A stretch of 17,497 nucleotides of DNA from Rhizobium sp. LCM 4573 (GTDB lineage: Bacteria; Pseudomonadota; Alphaproteobacteria; Rhizobiales; Rhizobiaceae). The notes under the pieces are model-generated. The model saw only the letters and a program-made list of their open reading frames with translations, had not been told where the DNA came from and did not search any database. Positions 2 to 6,075 of this stretch are shown in pieces (position 1 is the stretch's first letter; the number at the start of each line of letters is the position of its first letter). The stretch is taken from the NCBI RefSeq assembly GCF_001854865.1, contig NZ_MDDW01000001.1, forward strand, positions 487,040 through 504,536, read 5' to 3'. The translations under genes and the position numbers were made by a program.

Positions 2-130
2 CTTCCTCCGCAGCTTACGATCCGATCTTACCGGGAGATATTCACAGGCGAGGAATTTGCCGCCGCAGTGCCGATCACCATCGGTCTTGCCTTCAGCCAG
101 CACCCATTCGCCATCCTCGCCGCCCAGTAA
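2..130 (+). CDS. possible 3' end of an unidentified gene (partial)
   Basis: A reading frame is open from the window edge to a TAA at 128-130, giving about 42 residues that end HPFAILAAQ. It is moderately GC-rich at third positions, roughly 70% by eye, which fits a coding stretch but does not prove it. A terminator reading the other way lies just downstream, as expected for convergent genes. The minus strand of the same stretch is also open but has no obvious start codon with a ribosome binding site. The family is not recognised, and the strand could be wrong. Confidence 0.3.
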   Translation, partial: LPPQLTIRSYREIFTGEEFAAAVPITIGLAFSQHPFAILAAQ

Positions 131-215: not shown

Positions 216-290
216 TCAGCCGAAGCCAAGCAACGACAGAACTGCGAGAACGATAACCACGGCTCCGACGAGCCAGATGATGCTGTTCAT
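216..290 (-). CDS. 24-aa single-helix membrane microprotein (second of tandem pair)
   Basis: The ORF has 24 codons plus TGA. The start ATG (290-288) follows a strong Shine-Dalgarno, AAGGAGG, at good spacing. The protein begins MNSIIWLVGAVVIVLAVLSL and ends with a short Gly/Phe tail, so it is almost entirely one hydrophobic helix with no charged residue. It would insert in the inner membrane. The neighbour at 354-428 encodes a near copy with the same length, the same MNSI(I/V)WLVGA start and the same GF end, which argues strongly that both are real genes and not chance ORFs. The pair probably shares one transcript from the promoter at 457-481 and ends at the terminator at 159-187. Its function is unknown. 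A structural or stress role in the membrane is inferred only from the promoter type. Confidence 0.75.
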   Translation of the reverse strand: MNSIIWLVGAVVIVLAVLSLLGFG

Positions 291-353
291 GGCTGCCTCC
301 TTTCTATCCAAAAGGTTCGTGGGCGACGGACCTGGCACCTACGGGTTTCGGCC

Positions 354-428
354 TCATGCGAAGCCGACCAGGTTCAGGATCGCAATGACGATGACGATCG
401 CGCCAACCAACCAGACGATACTGTTCAT
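354..428 (-). CDS. 24-aa single-helix membrane microprotein (first of tandem pair)
   Basis: The ORF has 24 codons plus TGA. The ATG (428-426) is preceded by AAGGAG in a GA-rich stretch. The protein begins MNSIVWLVGAIVIVIAIL and ends NLVGFA. It is uncharged and hydrophobic throughout, long enough to span the membrane once. By eye it matches the downstream microprotein at about 16 of 24 positions, and most differences are I/V/L swaps, a pattern of protein-level selection. A GGAAC-N16-CGTT promoter lies 29 bases before the start codon. The gap to the second copy is 63 bases. No named family is recognised. Confidence 0.75.
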   Translation of the reverse strand: MNSIVWLVGAIVIVIAILNLVGFA

Positions 429-496: not shown

Positions 497-522
497 GGAA
501 CTTTTAGCCAGAGTGGAATGTT
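497..522 (+). promoter_or_regulatory. EcfG-like promoter facing ndh
   Basis: Plus strand: GGAAC (497-501), 17-base spacer, TGTT (519-522). One base of the -10 differs from CGTT. Transcription would start near 530, upstream of the chosen ndh ATG at 566, and this placement argues against an ndh start as early as 491. Confidence 0.45.
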
Positions 523-565: not shown

Positions 566-1903
566 ATGACTGGCGAGATCGCGACCATCGAGACACTCGA
601 TAAACCGGACGAAAAGACCGGCGCCCCGCGGGTAGTGATCGTCGGGGCGGGCTTCGGCGGGCTCGCCGCAGCCCGAGAGCTCGGCAATACCAATATCGAC
701 GTCACGGTCATCGACCGCCGCAACCACAATCTCTTTCAGCCGCTGCTCTATCAGGTCGCGACCGCCGCCCTTTCACCGGCCGATATTTCCGAGCCTATCC
801 GGCGCACCCTCGGCCGCTTCCGCAACATCAAGGTCATGCTGGCCGAGGTGACGGGCATAGATACCGCCGCCAAGACGGTTCATCTCGATTACGGCGCCGA
901 CGTGCCCTACGACTGGCTCATCATCGCCACCGGCTCGGAATACAACTATTTCGGCCACGAGGACTGGCGCGCCGCCGCACCCGGGCTGAAGACCATCCAC
1001 GAGGCGCGGCTGATCCGGCAACGCTTGCTTCTCGCCTTCGAAAAGGCCGAACTCAGCCAGGATCCGGAGGAGAAGAAGGCGCTTCTGACCAGCGTCATTA
1101 TCGGCGGCGGCCCGACCGGTGTCGAAATGGCCGGTGCCATTGCCGAGCTGGGCCGCTTCATGATCACGCGCGATTTCCGCAAGCTGGAGCCGGACCATCT
1201 GCGGGTTCTGCTGATCGAAGCCGGGCCGCGTATTCTCTCTGCCTTTCCGGAAGGGCTTATGAATTATGCGCAGCGTTCCCTTGAAGGAATGGGCGTGGAG
1301 ATAATGACCAACACGCCCGTCGAATCCATCGCGAAGGATGAGGTGCTCGCCGGTCCACACCGCATCCGCACAGGCTGCGTCATATGGGGCGCCGGCGTGA
1401 AGGCCTCACCTGCGGCGAGCTGGCTCGGCATAGAGGGGAAGGCTGGCGGGCGCATTCCCGTCGAGCCCGACCTATCCATTGCCGGTCACCCGGAAATCTA
1501 TGCGATCGGCGATACCGCCCTCGGCCTGAGCGACGACGGCAAGCCCCTGCCGGCGCTCGCCCAGGTCGCCAAGCAGCAGGGAGGCTATATAGGCAAGGCT
1601 TTGCGGCGCAAGCTCCTCGAGCGGAAGGACAGTCCACCCTTCCGCTTCAACAACCGCGGCAATACTGCCGTCGTCGGCCACAAGGCGGCGATCTTCGACT
1701 TCGGAACCTGGCGGCTCAAGGGAAGGATCGCCTGGTATCTGTGGGCGCTCGTCCACGTCTATCTGCTGGTCAATTTCGAAAAACGCCTGCTCGTCAGCAC
1801 TCAATGGGCCTGGCGCTATGTCAGCCGCCAGCGCGGCGCCCGTCTGATCGATGAAAACGCCGCATCCTTCGTGCCGTCTTCCACGCAAAGGACCGAGACA
1901 TGA
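566..1903 (+). CDS. ndh: type II NADH dehydrogenase (NADH:quinone oxidoreductase)
   Basis: A 445-aa flavoprotein that oxidises NADH and passes electrons to the quinone pool without pumping protons, working at the inner face of the cytoplasmic membrane. An FAD-binding GAGFGG motif lies at residues 27-32, preceded by VVIV. A second dinucleotide motif IIGGGPTGVEMAG lies near 178-190, for NADH. The flavin-closing IYAIGDTA is near 311-318. The hydrophobic, amphipathic C-terminal stretch (WYLWALVHVYLLVNF) is the usual membrane anchor. Length fits the family. The ATG at 566 is chosen because GGGGACAGG precedes it and the EcfG-like promoter lies between it and the earlier in-frame GTG at 491. The stop overlaps the next start (ATGA), so the two genes are translationally linked. 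Confidence 0.93.
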   Translation: MTGEIATIETLDKPDEKTGAPRVVIVGAGFGGLAAARELGNTNIDVTVIDRRNHNLFQPLLYQVATAALSPADISEPIRRTLGRFRNIKVMLAEVTGIDTAAKTVHLDYGADVPYDWLIIATGSEYNYFGHEDWRAAAPGLKTIHEARLIRQRLLLAFEKAELSQDPEEKKALLTSVIIGGGPTGVEMAGAIAELGRFMITRDFRKLEPDHLRVLLIEAGPRILSAFPEGLMNYAQRSLEGMGVEIMTNTPVESIAKDEVLAGPHRIRTGCVIWGAGVKASPAASWLGIEGKAGGRIPVEPDLSIAGHPEIYAIGDTALGLSDDGKPLPALAQVAKQQGGYIGKALRRKLLERKDSPPFRFNNRGNTAVVGHKAAIFDFGTWRLKGRIAWYLWALVHVYLLVNFEKRLLVSTQWAWRYVSRQRGARLIDENAASFVPSSTQRTET

Positions 1904-2226: not shown

Positions 2227-3084
2227 TCAGAGGATCGGCTTCCCGCCAGTGACCGCGATGGTCGCTCCGGACACGTAGCTCGACAGCGGATCAGCCAGCA
2301 TCACATAGGCGGTTGCGAGTTCCGCCGGCTGGCCCGGCCTCTTCATCGGCACCTGCTTGCCGAAATTGGTAACCGTGTCTTCCGGCATTGTGGAAGGGAT
2401 GAGCGGCGTCCAGATCGGTCCGGGAGCGACCGCATTGGCGCGGATGCCCTTCTCCGCCAGGAGCTGCGCAAGCCCCGCCGTGAAGTTCTGGATGGCGCCT
2501 TTGGTGGTCGCATAGGCAAGCAGCGTCGGGTTCGGAGTGTCGGAATTGATCGACGCCGTATTGATGATCGCGGCTCCGGGCTTCATGTGCGGCACGGCGG
2601 CCTTGGTGAGATAGAACATCGCATGGATGTTCACCTTGAAGGTCAGCTCCCACTCCTCGTCGCTGATATCCCCGATCGACTTGAATGTCGCCTGATGGGC
2701 CGCGTTGTTGACGAGGACATCGATGCCGCCGAGTTCCTTCACGGCCTTGTCAACGATCGCGCGGCAATGGGCCGGGTCTTGGATGTCACCCCGTACGAGC
2801 ACCGCCTTGCGGCCCGCCTCCTCGACCACACGCTTGGTATCCTCGGCGTCCTCATCCTCATCAAGATAGGAGATCAGCAGATCCGCGCCCTCGCGCGCAT
2901 AGGCGATCGCGACCGCCCGACCGATGCCGCTGTCGCCGCCGGTGATTACCGCCTTCTTGCCGGCAAGCCTGCCCGATCCGCGATAGGAAAGCTCGCCGTG
3001 GTCCGGCACCGGGTCCATCCGACCGGTAAAGCCCGGCATCGGCTGCTGCTGTTCGGGAAAGGGCGGGCTGGGATAGTTCGCCAT
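2227..3084 (-). CDS. SDR-family oxidoreductase with N-terminal extension (general stress protein 39-like)
   Basis: A 285-aa short-chain dehydrogenase. After a proline-rich N-terminal stretch of about 40 residues (PPFPEQQQPMPGFTGRMDP), the Rossmann fold begins. It shows TGGDSGIG (48-55) for NAD(P) binding, NNAA (126-129), and catalytic Ser178, Tyr191 and Lys195 (YATTK). The C-terminal end VSGATIAVTGGKPIL is typical of the family. The N-terminal extension and the GDSGIG variant are those of the Bacillus general stress protein 39/YhxC-type subgroup. The substrate is unknown. The start at 3084 has AGGAGG eight bases upstream. An earlier in-frame start at 3120 would fall at the promoter -10, so it is rejected. 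An EcfG-like promoter at 3119-3144 fits a stress-induced gene. Confidence 0.9.
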   Translation of the reverse strand: MANYPSPPFPEQQQPMPGFTGRMDPVPDHGELSYRGSGRLAGKKAVITGGDSGIGRAVAIAYAREGADLLISYLDEDEDAEDTKRVVEEAGRKAVLVRGDIQDPAHCRAIVDKAVKELGGIDVLVNNAAHQATFKSIGDISDEEWELTFKVNIHAMFYLTKAAVPHMKPGAAIINTASINSDTPNPTLLAYATTKGAIQNFTAGLAQLLAEKGIRANAVAPGPIWTPLIPSTMPEDTVTNFGKQVPMKRPGQPAELATAYVMLADPLSSYVSGATIAVTGGKPIL

Positions 3085-3118: not shown

Positions 3119-3144
3119 AACCCTCTCGCACCGGGGAATGTTCC
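3119..3144 (-). promoter_or_regulatory. EcfG-like promoter of the SDR gene at 2227-3084
   Basis: Minus strand: GGAAC (3144-3140), 17-base spacer, GGTT (3122-3119). One -10 base differs from CGTT. It lies 35 bases before the chosen start codon and downstream of the DUF983 stop, so the SDR gene can be transcribed on its own. Confidence 0.45.
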
Positions 3145-3728: not shown

Positions 3729-3753
3729 GGAACCATTTTAACCGCCCTCCGTT
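3729..3753 (+). promoter_or_regulatory. EcfG/RpoE2-type promoter of the SDR gene at 3833-4627
   Basis: Plus strand: GGAAC (3729-3733), 16-base spacer, CGTT (3750-3753), an exact match to the general-stress promoter form. The -10 ends 79 bases before the ATG. A second GGAAC at 3716-3720 has no matching -10 and is ignored. Confidence 0.7.
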
Positions 3754-3832: not shown

Positions 3833-4627
3833 ATGAACACAATCCGCGAACTCGCTGTGGTGACAGGCGCCTCCTCGGGCATAGGCTTCGAACTGGCGAA
3901 GCTTTGCGTCATCGAAGGCTATGACATTATCACGGTGGCAAACGAGCCGGAAATCCACACCGCGGCCGAAAAGCTCGCAGCCGAGGGCACGCGCATCACC
4001 GCAGTCGAAGCCGATCTCGCGGAAAAATCCGGTGTCGACAAGTTGATGGCCGCGATCGATGCCGATAGTCGACCGGTCGAACTTCTGTTTGCCAATGCCG
4101 GCAGCGGTCTCGGCGAGGGATTTCTCGACCGGGACTTCAAGGAGATCGAGCACGTCCTCCATACAAACATCACCGGCACGCTCGACGTGCTTCACAGGAT
4201 CGGCATGCAGATGCGTGCCCGAGGCCGCGGCCGCATCCTCATCACCGGCTCGATCGCCGGCTTCGTTCCCGGCAGCTTCCAGGCGGTCTACAACGCATCG
4301 AAGGCCTTCCTGAACAACTTCTCCTTCGCGCTTCGCAACGAGCTGAAGGACAGCGGAGTGACGGTCACCTGTCTGATGCCCGGTCCGACCGATACCGAAT
4401 TCTTCGAGCGCGCCGACATCGCCGACACTCCGCTCGGTGAGATGAAGAAGGACGACCCGGCATTCGTAGCCCGCATCGGCTTCGACGCCATGATGGAAGG
4501 GGAAGGTGACGTCGTGAGCGGCTGGAAAAACAAGCTTCAATCGGTGATCGCCAACGTCACGCCCTCCGAGATGCTGGCCGAGCAGCACCGCAAGATGGCC
4601 GAACCGGATCAGCACAAACCGGCGTGA
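3833..4627 (+). CDS. SDR-family NAD(P)-dependent oxidoreductase
   Basis: A 264-aa classical short-chain dehydrogenase with TGASSGIG (11-18), NAG (88-90), Ser140 in the ITGS strand, and Tyr153/Lys157 (YNASK). The region after PGPTDTEFF (183-191) is helical and charged, ending in a short tail. The substrate cannot be told; the closest general type is the DltE/YqjQ-like group. The ATG at 3833 has GGGAGGACTGAA before it. The frame is open further upstream but that part spans the promoter at 3729-3753, so the later start is chosen. Convergent with the lipoprotein gene at 4642, with 14 bases between. Confidence 0.9.
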   Translation: MNTIRELAVVTGASSGIGFELAKLCVIEGYDIITVANEPEIHTAAEKLAAEGTRITAVEADLAEKSGVDKLMAAIDADSRPVELLFANAGSGLGEGFLDRDFKEIEHVLHTNITGTLDVLHRIGMQMRARGRGRILITGSIAGFVPGSFQAVYNASKAFLNNFSFALRNELKDSGVTVTCLMPGPTDTEFFERADIADTPLGEMKKDDPAFVARIGFDAMMEGEGDVVSGWKNKLQSVIANVTPSEMLAEQHRKMAEPDQHKPA

Positions 4628-5673: not shown

Positions 5674-6075
5674 TCAGAACGCGTAGCGCAGGCCCGACAG
5701 GTCATTGCTGAACCGCTCTCCGTTGACATGCACCACATTGTCCTTGGCGAACTCGTGCGCCACCAGCTTCAGATAGGGCTGGAACACGCCGCCGTCGGCC
5801 AGTTCATGGTTGAGGCCGATGTTCACCCCGAGACGTCCGACGAAGGACTTCATCGCGTCGGCATCGCCATACATGCCGTTGCTCAGCCAGTAGTCCTTGG
5901 AACCGGCCCTGACGGCGGCGATCTGCGCGAAGGGTTCGAAGAACCAATTGTCCGGTCCGGCGATATGGCGGCCGACCTCGATCTGCCCGCCGATGCCGAT
6001 ATTGTGGTAGTCGCCGGAAGCGCGCGCCTTCGCCCCCCAACCGCAACCATTGGCCGTACCACCGCAATATTCAAT
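5674..6075 (-). pseudogene. C-terminal remnant of an autotransporter beta-barrel protein
   Basis: A minus-strand frame of 133 codons is open between a TAA at 6078-6076 and a TGA at 5676-5674. It has no start codon with a ribosome binding site at its 5' end. The translation reads as the last strands of an autotransporter beta-domain: GDYHNIGIGGQIEVGRH, then WFFEPFAQIAAVRAGSKDYW, GRLGVNIGLNHEL, FQPYLKLVAHEF, ending LSGLRYAF with the C-terminal aromatic residue needed for barrel assembly. A full barrel is about 270 residues and the passenger domain is absent, so this is only the last third to half of one. The upstream region gives no continuing frame. Best read as a decayed gene left by deletion. 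Confidence 0.65.

Follow-up and report, generated by a model that had tools for sequence, protein, structure and literature searches.

Two 24-codon ORFs and their setting

Two adjacent ORFs of 24 codons, lying between the end of treY and a divergent NADH dehydrogenase-like gene, raise the question of whether frames so short are genes at all and, if so, what two related peptides of the length of a single membrane helix would do. The window (the whole stretch of DNA analysed, 17,497 nucleotides from Rhizobium sp. LCM 4573) carries both on its minus strand, each exactly 24 codons long and each preceded by a ribosome-binding site (RBS), as an earlier note made from the sequence alone had stated. 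Its description of the peptides as uncharged also stands, Asp, Glu, Lys, Arg and His being absent from both. Its term "near-identical" has to be tempered, since 7 of the 24 positions differ (71% identity), although the predominance of Ile/Val/Leu exchanges is borne out by five of the seven, the others being N19S and A24G. At the DNA level, 48 of 72 nucleotides are identical, with 14.2 synonymous and 9.8 non-synonymous differences. The features of the locus are listed here; counts over 35 loci refer to a tandem set comprising 34 pairs from 40 genomes of the window's genus and one locus, G140, from outside those 40.

428..354, minus strand: microprotein A, MNSIVWLVGAIVIVIAILNLVGFA, 24 codons and TGA; Trp6/Ala10 subtype, Asn19
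290..216, minus strand: microprotein B, MNSIIWLVGAVVIVLAVLSLLGFG, 24 codons and TGA; Trp6/Ala10 subtype, Ser19
440-435, minus strand: RBS of ORF A, AAGGAG, read from the sequence; RBS-like motif in 34/35 loci
303-296, minus strand: RBS of ORF B, AAAGGAGG, read from the sequence; RBS-like motif in 35/35 loci
481-457, minus strand: putative EcfG/RpoE2-type box, GGAAC-N17-GTT (N16 + cGTT), GGAACCTTTCGTTGGCCCCGCCGTT; begins 53 nt upstream of ORF A
189-162, minus strand: intrinsic terminator-like hairpin 3' of the two-microprotein unit; its sequence, GGCGCC...GGCGCCTTTT, shows partial conservation across the 35 aligned loci
2..130, plus strand: 3' end of treY (malto-oligosyltrehalose synthase), convergent neighbour; start outside the window
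497..522, plus strand: second EcfG-like box, oriented towards the divergent NDH-2-like gene; its spacer exceeds that of the ORF A box by one base
566..1903, plus strand: NADH dehydrogenase (NDH-2)-like flavoprotein gene, divergent; likely ATG at 566, longest ORF from 491

The box, the two ORFs and the terminator-like hairpin thus make up one compact unit. Taken alone, the hairpin is at chance level (one found against 0.8 expected in shuffled sequences), so that its support comes from its partial conservation in the window's genus. As to the flanking genes, the treY end is 57% identical to the protein of locus L191, which matches TIGR02401 (E 8.2e-301), and the NDH-2-like product matches PF07992 (E 2.6e-52) and, just under the cut-off of that family, PF22366 (NDH2_C; E 3.2e-6).

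Coding selection and copy-specific residues

A 75-nt family pattern, drawn up from the window ORFs and their relatives, matched the window at the two ORFs only and gave no match in 200 shuffles. A profile built from 22 members of the 24-residue family (A1) found matches in all 40 genomes examined from the window's genus, where the reversed-profile control yielded a single partial match, covering 13 positions inside a 484-aa frame. The tandem pair is present in 34 of these genomes, and copy A stands alone at the locus in the remaining 6. Selection on the protein, which had been proposed from the Ile/Val/Leu character of the differences, is evident in both copies within the genus: pN/pS is 0.093 for copy A (35 unique sequences) and 0.130 for copy B (34 unique sequences). 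Variation follows the frame, with variable columns at codon positions 1, 2 and 3 (23 columns each) numbering 10, 0 and 22 in A and 7, 1 and 21 in B. The earlier note had set conservation of frame and RBS beforehand as one of the tests of its claim, and both proved to be conserved, the RBS in 34/35 loci for A and 35/35 for B. Start, RBS, frame and stop are accordingly under purifying selection, the pattern by which a protein-coding small ORF is recognised. In the alignment of the 35 loci, GGAACC and CGTT are invariant, and the start codons, the frames and the GGCGCC arms of the terminator stand out; the spacer between A and B (34-64 nt) is unconserved except for the RBS.

The two copies have kept their own residues. 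Throughout the tandem loci copy A has Ile15 (35/35) and Asn19 (34/35), and copy B has Ser19 (35/35) and mostly Leu15 (31/35), B being the nearer of the two to the consensus of the 24-residue family. Since both versions are retained, and since it is B, never A, that is missing from 6 of the 40 genomes, the pair looks, from these alignments, more like two specialised isoforms than like a means of extra dose. The suggestion that the duplication serves a dose-dependent role is weakened by the same copy-specific residues and A-only genomes. Separately from the tandem locus, some genomes of the genus have additional dispersed single copies (L092, L093, L095, L101 and L103), which have no EcfG box within 200 nt upstream.

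A putative general-stress promoter box

The box at 481-457 looks like a general-stress promoter and is treated here as putative. Promoters of the same form appear in a list of RpoE2-dependent promoters of S. meliloti (PMC6180224). Boxes were sought as GGAAC-N16/19-GTT within 130 nt upstream of a microprotein. The general-stress promoter claimed for the window is matched by a putative box in 35/35 tandem loci, beginning in every case 53-59 nt upstream of A, so that the box stands at promoter distance, as is expected of members of the EcfG (RpoE2) regulon. When all members of the family in the genus are considered, 41 of 46 have an upstream box, and the five that do not are dispersed extra copies outside the tandem locus. 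The box is likewise upstream of 63 of 104 alphaproteobacterial members from outside the genus and of none of the 9 members from outside the class.

These frequencies can be set against several controls. Random stretches of the same loci contain the box in about 4% of cases (1.3% for the outside-class group), and downstream regions of equal size contain it in 0/46 genus members, 2/104 other alphaproteobacterial members and 0/9 members outside the class. On the reverse complement of the upstream region it occurs in 5/104 members outside the genus and in 23/46 within it, the latter figure most likely reflecting, to judge by the layout at 497-522 of the window, a box that faces the divergent gene. 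Among the pattern-scan matches listed, 63 of 121 members have a box, vs 17 of 711 other long ORFs of the same loci.

Further EcfG-like matches occur elsewhere in the window: at 3144 (minus strand), ahead of an SDR gene (ORF 3120-2227, likely ATG at 3084); at 3729 (plus strand), some 104 nt before another SDR gene, whose likely start is the ATG at 3833; and at 5781 (plus strand). From the number of such boxes the window may represent a small cluster of general-stress genes.

Reach, length and residue pattern of the family

Within the taxonomic family of the window, A1 matched 88 of 199 genomes at E <= 1e-4; a search with a single sequence was insensitive, finding 37 of 199 at E <= 0.01. More widely, 127 of 397 genomes of the order and 38 of 385 of the class matched at E <= 0.05, counts that include short partial matches inside long frames as their weakest members, so that fewer are real. 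A phylum sample of 299 genomes gave 30 matches at E <= 0.01, and nine of these came from outside the class (the weakest of the nine at E 0.001). Relatives of the 24-mer are found in Alphaproteobacteria and in some beta- and gammaproteobacteria, many of the hosts being bacteria of soil or associated with plants. Because the strict 75-nt pattern fixes the length and several residues, it was used for names and gene context only; it matches at least 119 stretches in genome records, and the matches listed include, among Alphaproteobacteria, Rhizobium, Agrobacterium, Mesorhizobium, Bradyrhizobium, Bosea, Devosia, Microvirga and Phenylobacterium, with Yoonia and Roseovarius among the Rhodobacterales, and, outside the class, Pseudomonas, Halomonas, Marinobacter, and Azoarcus and Polaromonas bins. 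Two loci assigned to other phyla, L182 (Opitutus) and L207 (a Solirubrobacterales metagenome bin), were not counted as spread of the family, both being probably mis-binned contigs; for L182 this is argued by the grouping of its A2 gene (see below) among Devosia rows.

The length of the peptide is nearly fixed. After removal of members shorter than 20 aa from the set used for lengths and residues, 24 codons is the exact length of 192 of 194; the window's genus supplies 81 members of this set, and outside it the figure is 111 of 113, both exceptions (25 and 22 codons) lying there. As the stop codon is outside the profile, this constancy constitutes evidence independent of the search. Constraint is also unevenly distributed along the peptide. 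In 126 unique 24-mers (weighted; effective number 44.8) V12, L18 and G22 are present at about 100%, G9 at 98% and S19 at 83%; only Tyr and Trp occur at position 6, whereas adjoining positions exchange Ile, Val and Leu. Positions 6 and 10, tabulated over 220 unique peptides that include the pattern-scan matches listed, are combined as Tyr-Leu in 131, Trp-Ala in 62, Tyr-Ala in 13, Tyr-Val in 12 and Trp-Leu in 2. On this alignment evidence the residue conservation is more specific than that of a generic hydrophobic helix. The conserved positions showed no significant preference for one side of the helix (permutation p 0.31), and a single binding face is therefore not supported.

A2, a candidate partner protein

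Seventy loci, not all of them independent, have downstream of the microprotein, and on its strand, a gene for A2, an uncharacterised multi-helix membrane protein of about 290 aa; adjacency was accepted when the gap to the first aligned residue was greater than 0 and less than 300 nt. This arrangement accounts for 37 of the 119 pattern-scan matches listed and for 16 of 29 loci of the class (L062-L090), two and one of these, respectively, having been added by eye because of a non-positive gap or of a member listed at another point. It depends on subtype: 71 of 165 Tyr6/Leu10 members adjoin A2, with no adjacent A2 detected for the other 94 (some of whose loci are short), vs none of 119 members of the Trp6/Ala10 type to which the window copies belong, 81 of these being from the window's genus. 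In this tabulation L141 and L143, with two members each, were not scored as adjoining A2, so that one Tyr6/Ala10 and one Tyr6/Val10 member linked to A2 are absent from the adjacent counts.

A count was also made from the side of A2, so that loci were not chosen by their microprotein. In 199 genomes of the order, with mostly 12 candidates scored per genome, 32 full-length A2 hits (E <= 2e-58) were obtained, of which 28 have a transmembrane microprotein in the upstream slot: 14 belong to the 24-residue family and 14 to a second family described below. The four A2 genes with no recognised microprotein upstream are those of G374, G361, G371 and G231. A2 occurs in 22 of 45 genomes with a 24-mer vs 21 of 154 without one (tallied by hand; Fisher p 2.3e-6, a value that ignores kinship among the genomes). 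In the genome of the window, A2 is encoded on another contig (C26:499158-500009), with an EcfG box and a 25-codon ORF in front of it. Since no Trp6/Ala10 member adjoins A2, and since A2 here has its own 25-residue microprotein, A2 as the partner of the window pair is unsupported. An operon with a larger membrane protein, which would mark the subunit of a membrane complex, is accordingly a property of many relatives and not of the window copies.

Little can be said of A2 from databases. It matched no Pfam or NCBIfam family significantly, and its labels are mostly "hypothetical", with some "Mll5186 protein" and a few "phage holin family protein" (PF07332). When 20 members were compared with PF07332, a single one matched (E 0.0054), and the label was rejected as evidence of a holin; the name "PhnA-like" is without support and was not adopted. 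A structural model of A2 (pLDDT 81.5) comprises three long helices at the N-terminus, a long one at the C-terminus and others that are shorter, and matched no fold in the PDB (best E 0.91). Comparison with PDB chain sequences gave 14 matches up to E 1, the best being TLP-IPT (E 1.4e-6 over 32 profile positions) and the rest at E >= 0.006; these were not taken as homology.

A second microprotein family in the same slot

The other occupant of the slot, represented by MGRGILLWLLGVPIPIIILIALFYH and its relatives, is a second family of transmembrane microproteins, usually of 25 residues, which lies directly before A2 in 14 of the 32 loci; one of these 14 occupants has 24 codons. An example is:

L297 1378-1455, plus strand: 25-residue microprotein

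An EcfG box precedes the microprotein in 11 of the 14 A2-linked loci. The family matches 25 of 190 genomes of the class at E <= 0.001, and A2 lies directly downstream in only 7 of 30 loci that were fetched, so that this microprotein, too, often occurs without A2. Like the 24-mers, its members consist of a transmembrane segment alone, start with a hydrophobic-aromatic-x-x-Gly motif, in most A2-linked loci follow an EcfG box, and can occupy the slot before A2; they differ in a Pro-x-Pro motif and in their usual length. Comparison of the two profiles gave no reliable homology (HHalign probability 10%, over 9 columns). In a quick tree of 96 A2 sequences (72 with a 24-mer, 19 with a 25-mer and 5 with neither, the sample being enriched for microprotein loci), a single starred group takes in the rows with a 25-mer and, besides these, one of the rows lacking both microproteins, and the distribution can be explained by one change between the two occupants; the tree was rooted at its midpoint, and the direction of the change depends on the root. 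That a single change is enough implies that the upstream slot outlived an exchange between the two families.

Other neighbours and annotation

CreA is encoded directly after the microprotein in three loci (L178, L250 and L273, among them a Rhodobacteraceae bin and Tateyamaria), and SelO in three others (L208, L236 and L296, among them Phenylobacterium and a Caulobacterales bin); these neighbours were grouped by similarity, one of each being named by Pfam. Relatives on plasmids lie near genes for CsbD, PRC-barrel or "general stress" proteins. Together, the CreA, SelO and plasmid neighbours argue that A2 is a frequent, though not the sole, companion of the family.

A search of plasmid DNA returned seven records, all of which contain a 24-codon member. 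The prediction that such ORFs would be missing from annotation is borne out as far as it was tested, the microprotein being listed in none of five plasmid gene tables (PLSDB, a table incomplete by its own description); the other two records have no such table. On a Burkholderia multivorans plasmid (L154, 2504-2578), a 24-codon member, MYNVVWLVGAVVIVLFVLGYFGLR, is absent from the gene table; it lies between a CsbD gene and a gene for a hypothetical protein, with PRC-barrel genes further out. In R. etli 8C-3 (L153, 2462-2638), the "hypothetical protein" AM571_RS37020 is placed on the opposite strand over the microprotein ORF, possibly an annotation error; the copy in this strain has Asp in place of Gly9. 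Searches of the peptides against Pfam, NCBIfam and PADLOC gave no match (DUF3094, at E 0.21 for copy B, is non-significant), and Rfam gave none over positions 1-800 of the window. A tblastn search with single peptides against plasmids and phages returned nothing at E 10, probably because the low-complexity filter masked the peptide. In the open-licence papers searched, no description of the 24-residue family was found.

What the peptides may do

We favour, at about an even chance, the view that these are sequence-specific small membrane subunits or regulators, induced by stress, that act on a larger membrane protein. Coding selection, a near-fixed length, the EcfG box, the operon structure and the A2 neighbourhood are the observations behind this view, all of them made on sequence data. 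As we picture it, the general stress response would switch on, in an EcfG-dependent manner, a short transcript from the EcfG-type box that ends just after copy B; its translation would provide A and B as two diverged inner-membrane microproteins of 24 residues, each inserting into the membrane as a single helix; and these would serve as accessory or regulatory subunits, binding a larger membrane protein through G9, V12, L18, G22, W/Y6 and S/N19. For Tyr6/Leu10 members, the likely partner would be the A2 protein encoded immediately downstream. A broader version, which we advance as tentative and somewhat doubtful, envisages a new kind of inner-membrane stress module in which A2 nearly always has a dedicated transmembrane microprotein of 24-25 residues as an exchangeable subunit, usually behind a general-stress box, with free-standing duplicated isoforms acting in trans on A2 or on other proteins.

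The absence of a one-sided helical face (p 0.31) would also suit a peptide with no protein partner, one that is abundant, stress-induced and acts on lipid or by self-assembly, through packing, fluidity or domain formation. An uncharged peptide of single-helix length, encoded in the window as a self-contained unit that has an EcfG-type box and a terminator-like hairpin of its own, and with plasmid relatives near general-stress genes such as that for CsbD, fits such a role; the near-invariance of V12, L18, G22 and G9 amid neighbours that swap freely, and the conservation of the slot before A2 (28/32), count against it, and we regard it as rather unlikely. Ibs, TisB and Ldr are type I toxins, short hydrophobic peptides with which the 24-mers share that general character, and the earlier note had named type I toxins as an example. 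On that reading the 24-mers would harm the cell when abundant and would normally be repressed by an antisense RNA. Small uncharged transmembrane peptides in tandem copies, with dispersed extras in some genomes, are compatible with this. The 24-mers depart from those toxins, however, in their residue-specific purifying selection and in their general-stress box. No antisense RNA was detected, though one may have been missed: Rfam gave no match, and the genus alignment, inspected by eye, displays only the EcfG box, RBSs, coding sequence and terminator, with no conserved antisense block. The lack of a PADLOC match and the recurrent gene order with A2 speak against a toxin as well. The lack of an E. 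coli-type sigma-70 site on either strand of positions 1-700 is weak evidence, because such sites are rare in shuffled sequences too and that consensus may not be the host's. A toxin in the manner of these systems now appears quite improbable.

Two further alternatives would deny a function to the peptide as such. If the ORF were a leader peptide, or coupled translationally to the next gene, its translation and not its product would regulate what follows, and in 70 loci its stop codon does lie shortly before A2. Yet the amino-acid sequence is itself conserved, the 24-mer often has no A2 beside it, and the terminator-like hairpin and the convergent treY leave no downstream gene to regulate in the window, where no regulated gene is found directly downstream in the same transcript; this alternative is highly improbable. 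The ORFs might also be incidental to a regulatory small RNA: a short transcript from between genes, driven by EcfG and ending at a terminator, is something that could be catalogued as one. For S. meliloti, the account of the RpoE2 regulon includes sigma-E2 promoter motifs upstream of 23 small RNAs (PMC3616915). Transcripts of the kind described here could be listed among those 23. A purely regulatory RNA is nevertheless contradicted by the codon periodicity, substitutions following the frame in both ORFs, and by the unconserved A-B spacer, so that we hold it to be extremely improbable; an RNA with a dual function may be involved.

Relation to known systems and significance

For a small membrane subunit or regulator, the obvious parallels are CydX, KdpF and AcrZ, small accessory subunits of bacterial membrane complexes. 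These, too, are single-helix peptides of a few tens of residues, and relatives of the 24-mer are, like them, often encoded in an operon with a larger membrane protein. The 24-mers are unlike them in matching no Pfam or NCBIfam family, in their general-stress box and in having as candidate partner the uncharacterised A2, and the window pair differs further in forming no operon with A2. CydX of Brucella is mentioned in a paper that also describes SEP6 of S. meliloti, a protein of fewer than 30 aa with a predicted transmembrane helix, whose tagged form was confined to, or most abundant in, the P100 fraction, which contains ribosomes and membranes, and whose sORF is conserved in Hyphomicrobiales (PMC10117765). 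As far as that description goes, SEP6 resembles the 24-mers in length, predicted helix and the conservation of its sORF in Hyphomicrobiales. SEP6 may belong to the 24-residue or to the 25-residue family.

To our knowledge, the majority of the genes in the alphaproteobacterial general stress response lack an assigned function. Judged from sequence and gene order, the ORFs described here are real and conserved, and their products are predicted small transmembrane proteins with an unusual link to general stress and, for the family, a candidate partner. A family with an EcfG box ahead of most of its sampled alphaproteobacterial members, and under strong purifying selection, has yet no Pfam or NCBIfam entry, and the case shows how shortness can keep a gene out of sight even where 40 of 40 genomes sampled from a genus carry it. 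The putative association of such peptides with larger membrane proteins gives a hypothesis, open to testing, about the role of some of the stress regulon in the membrane.
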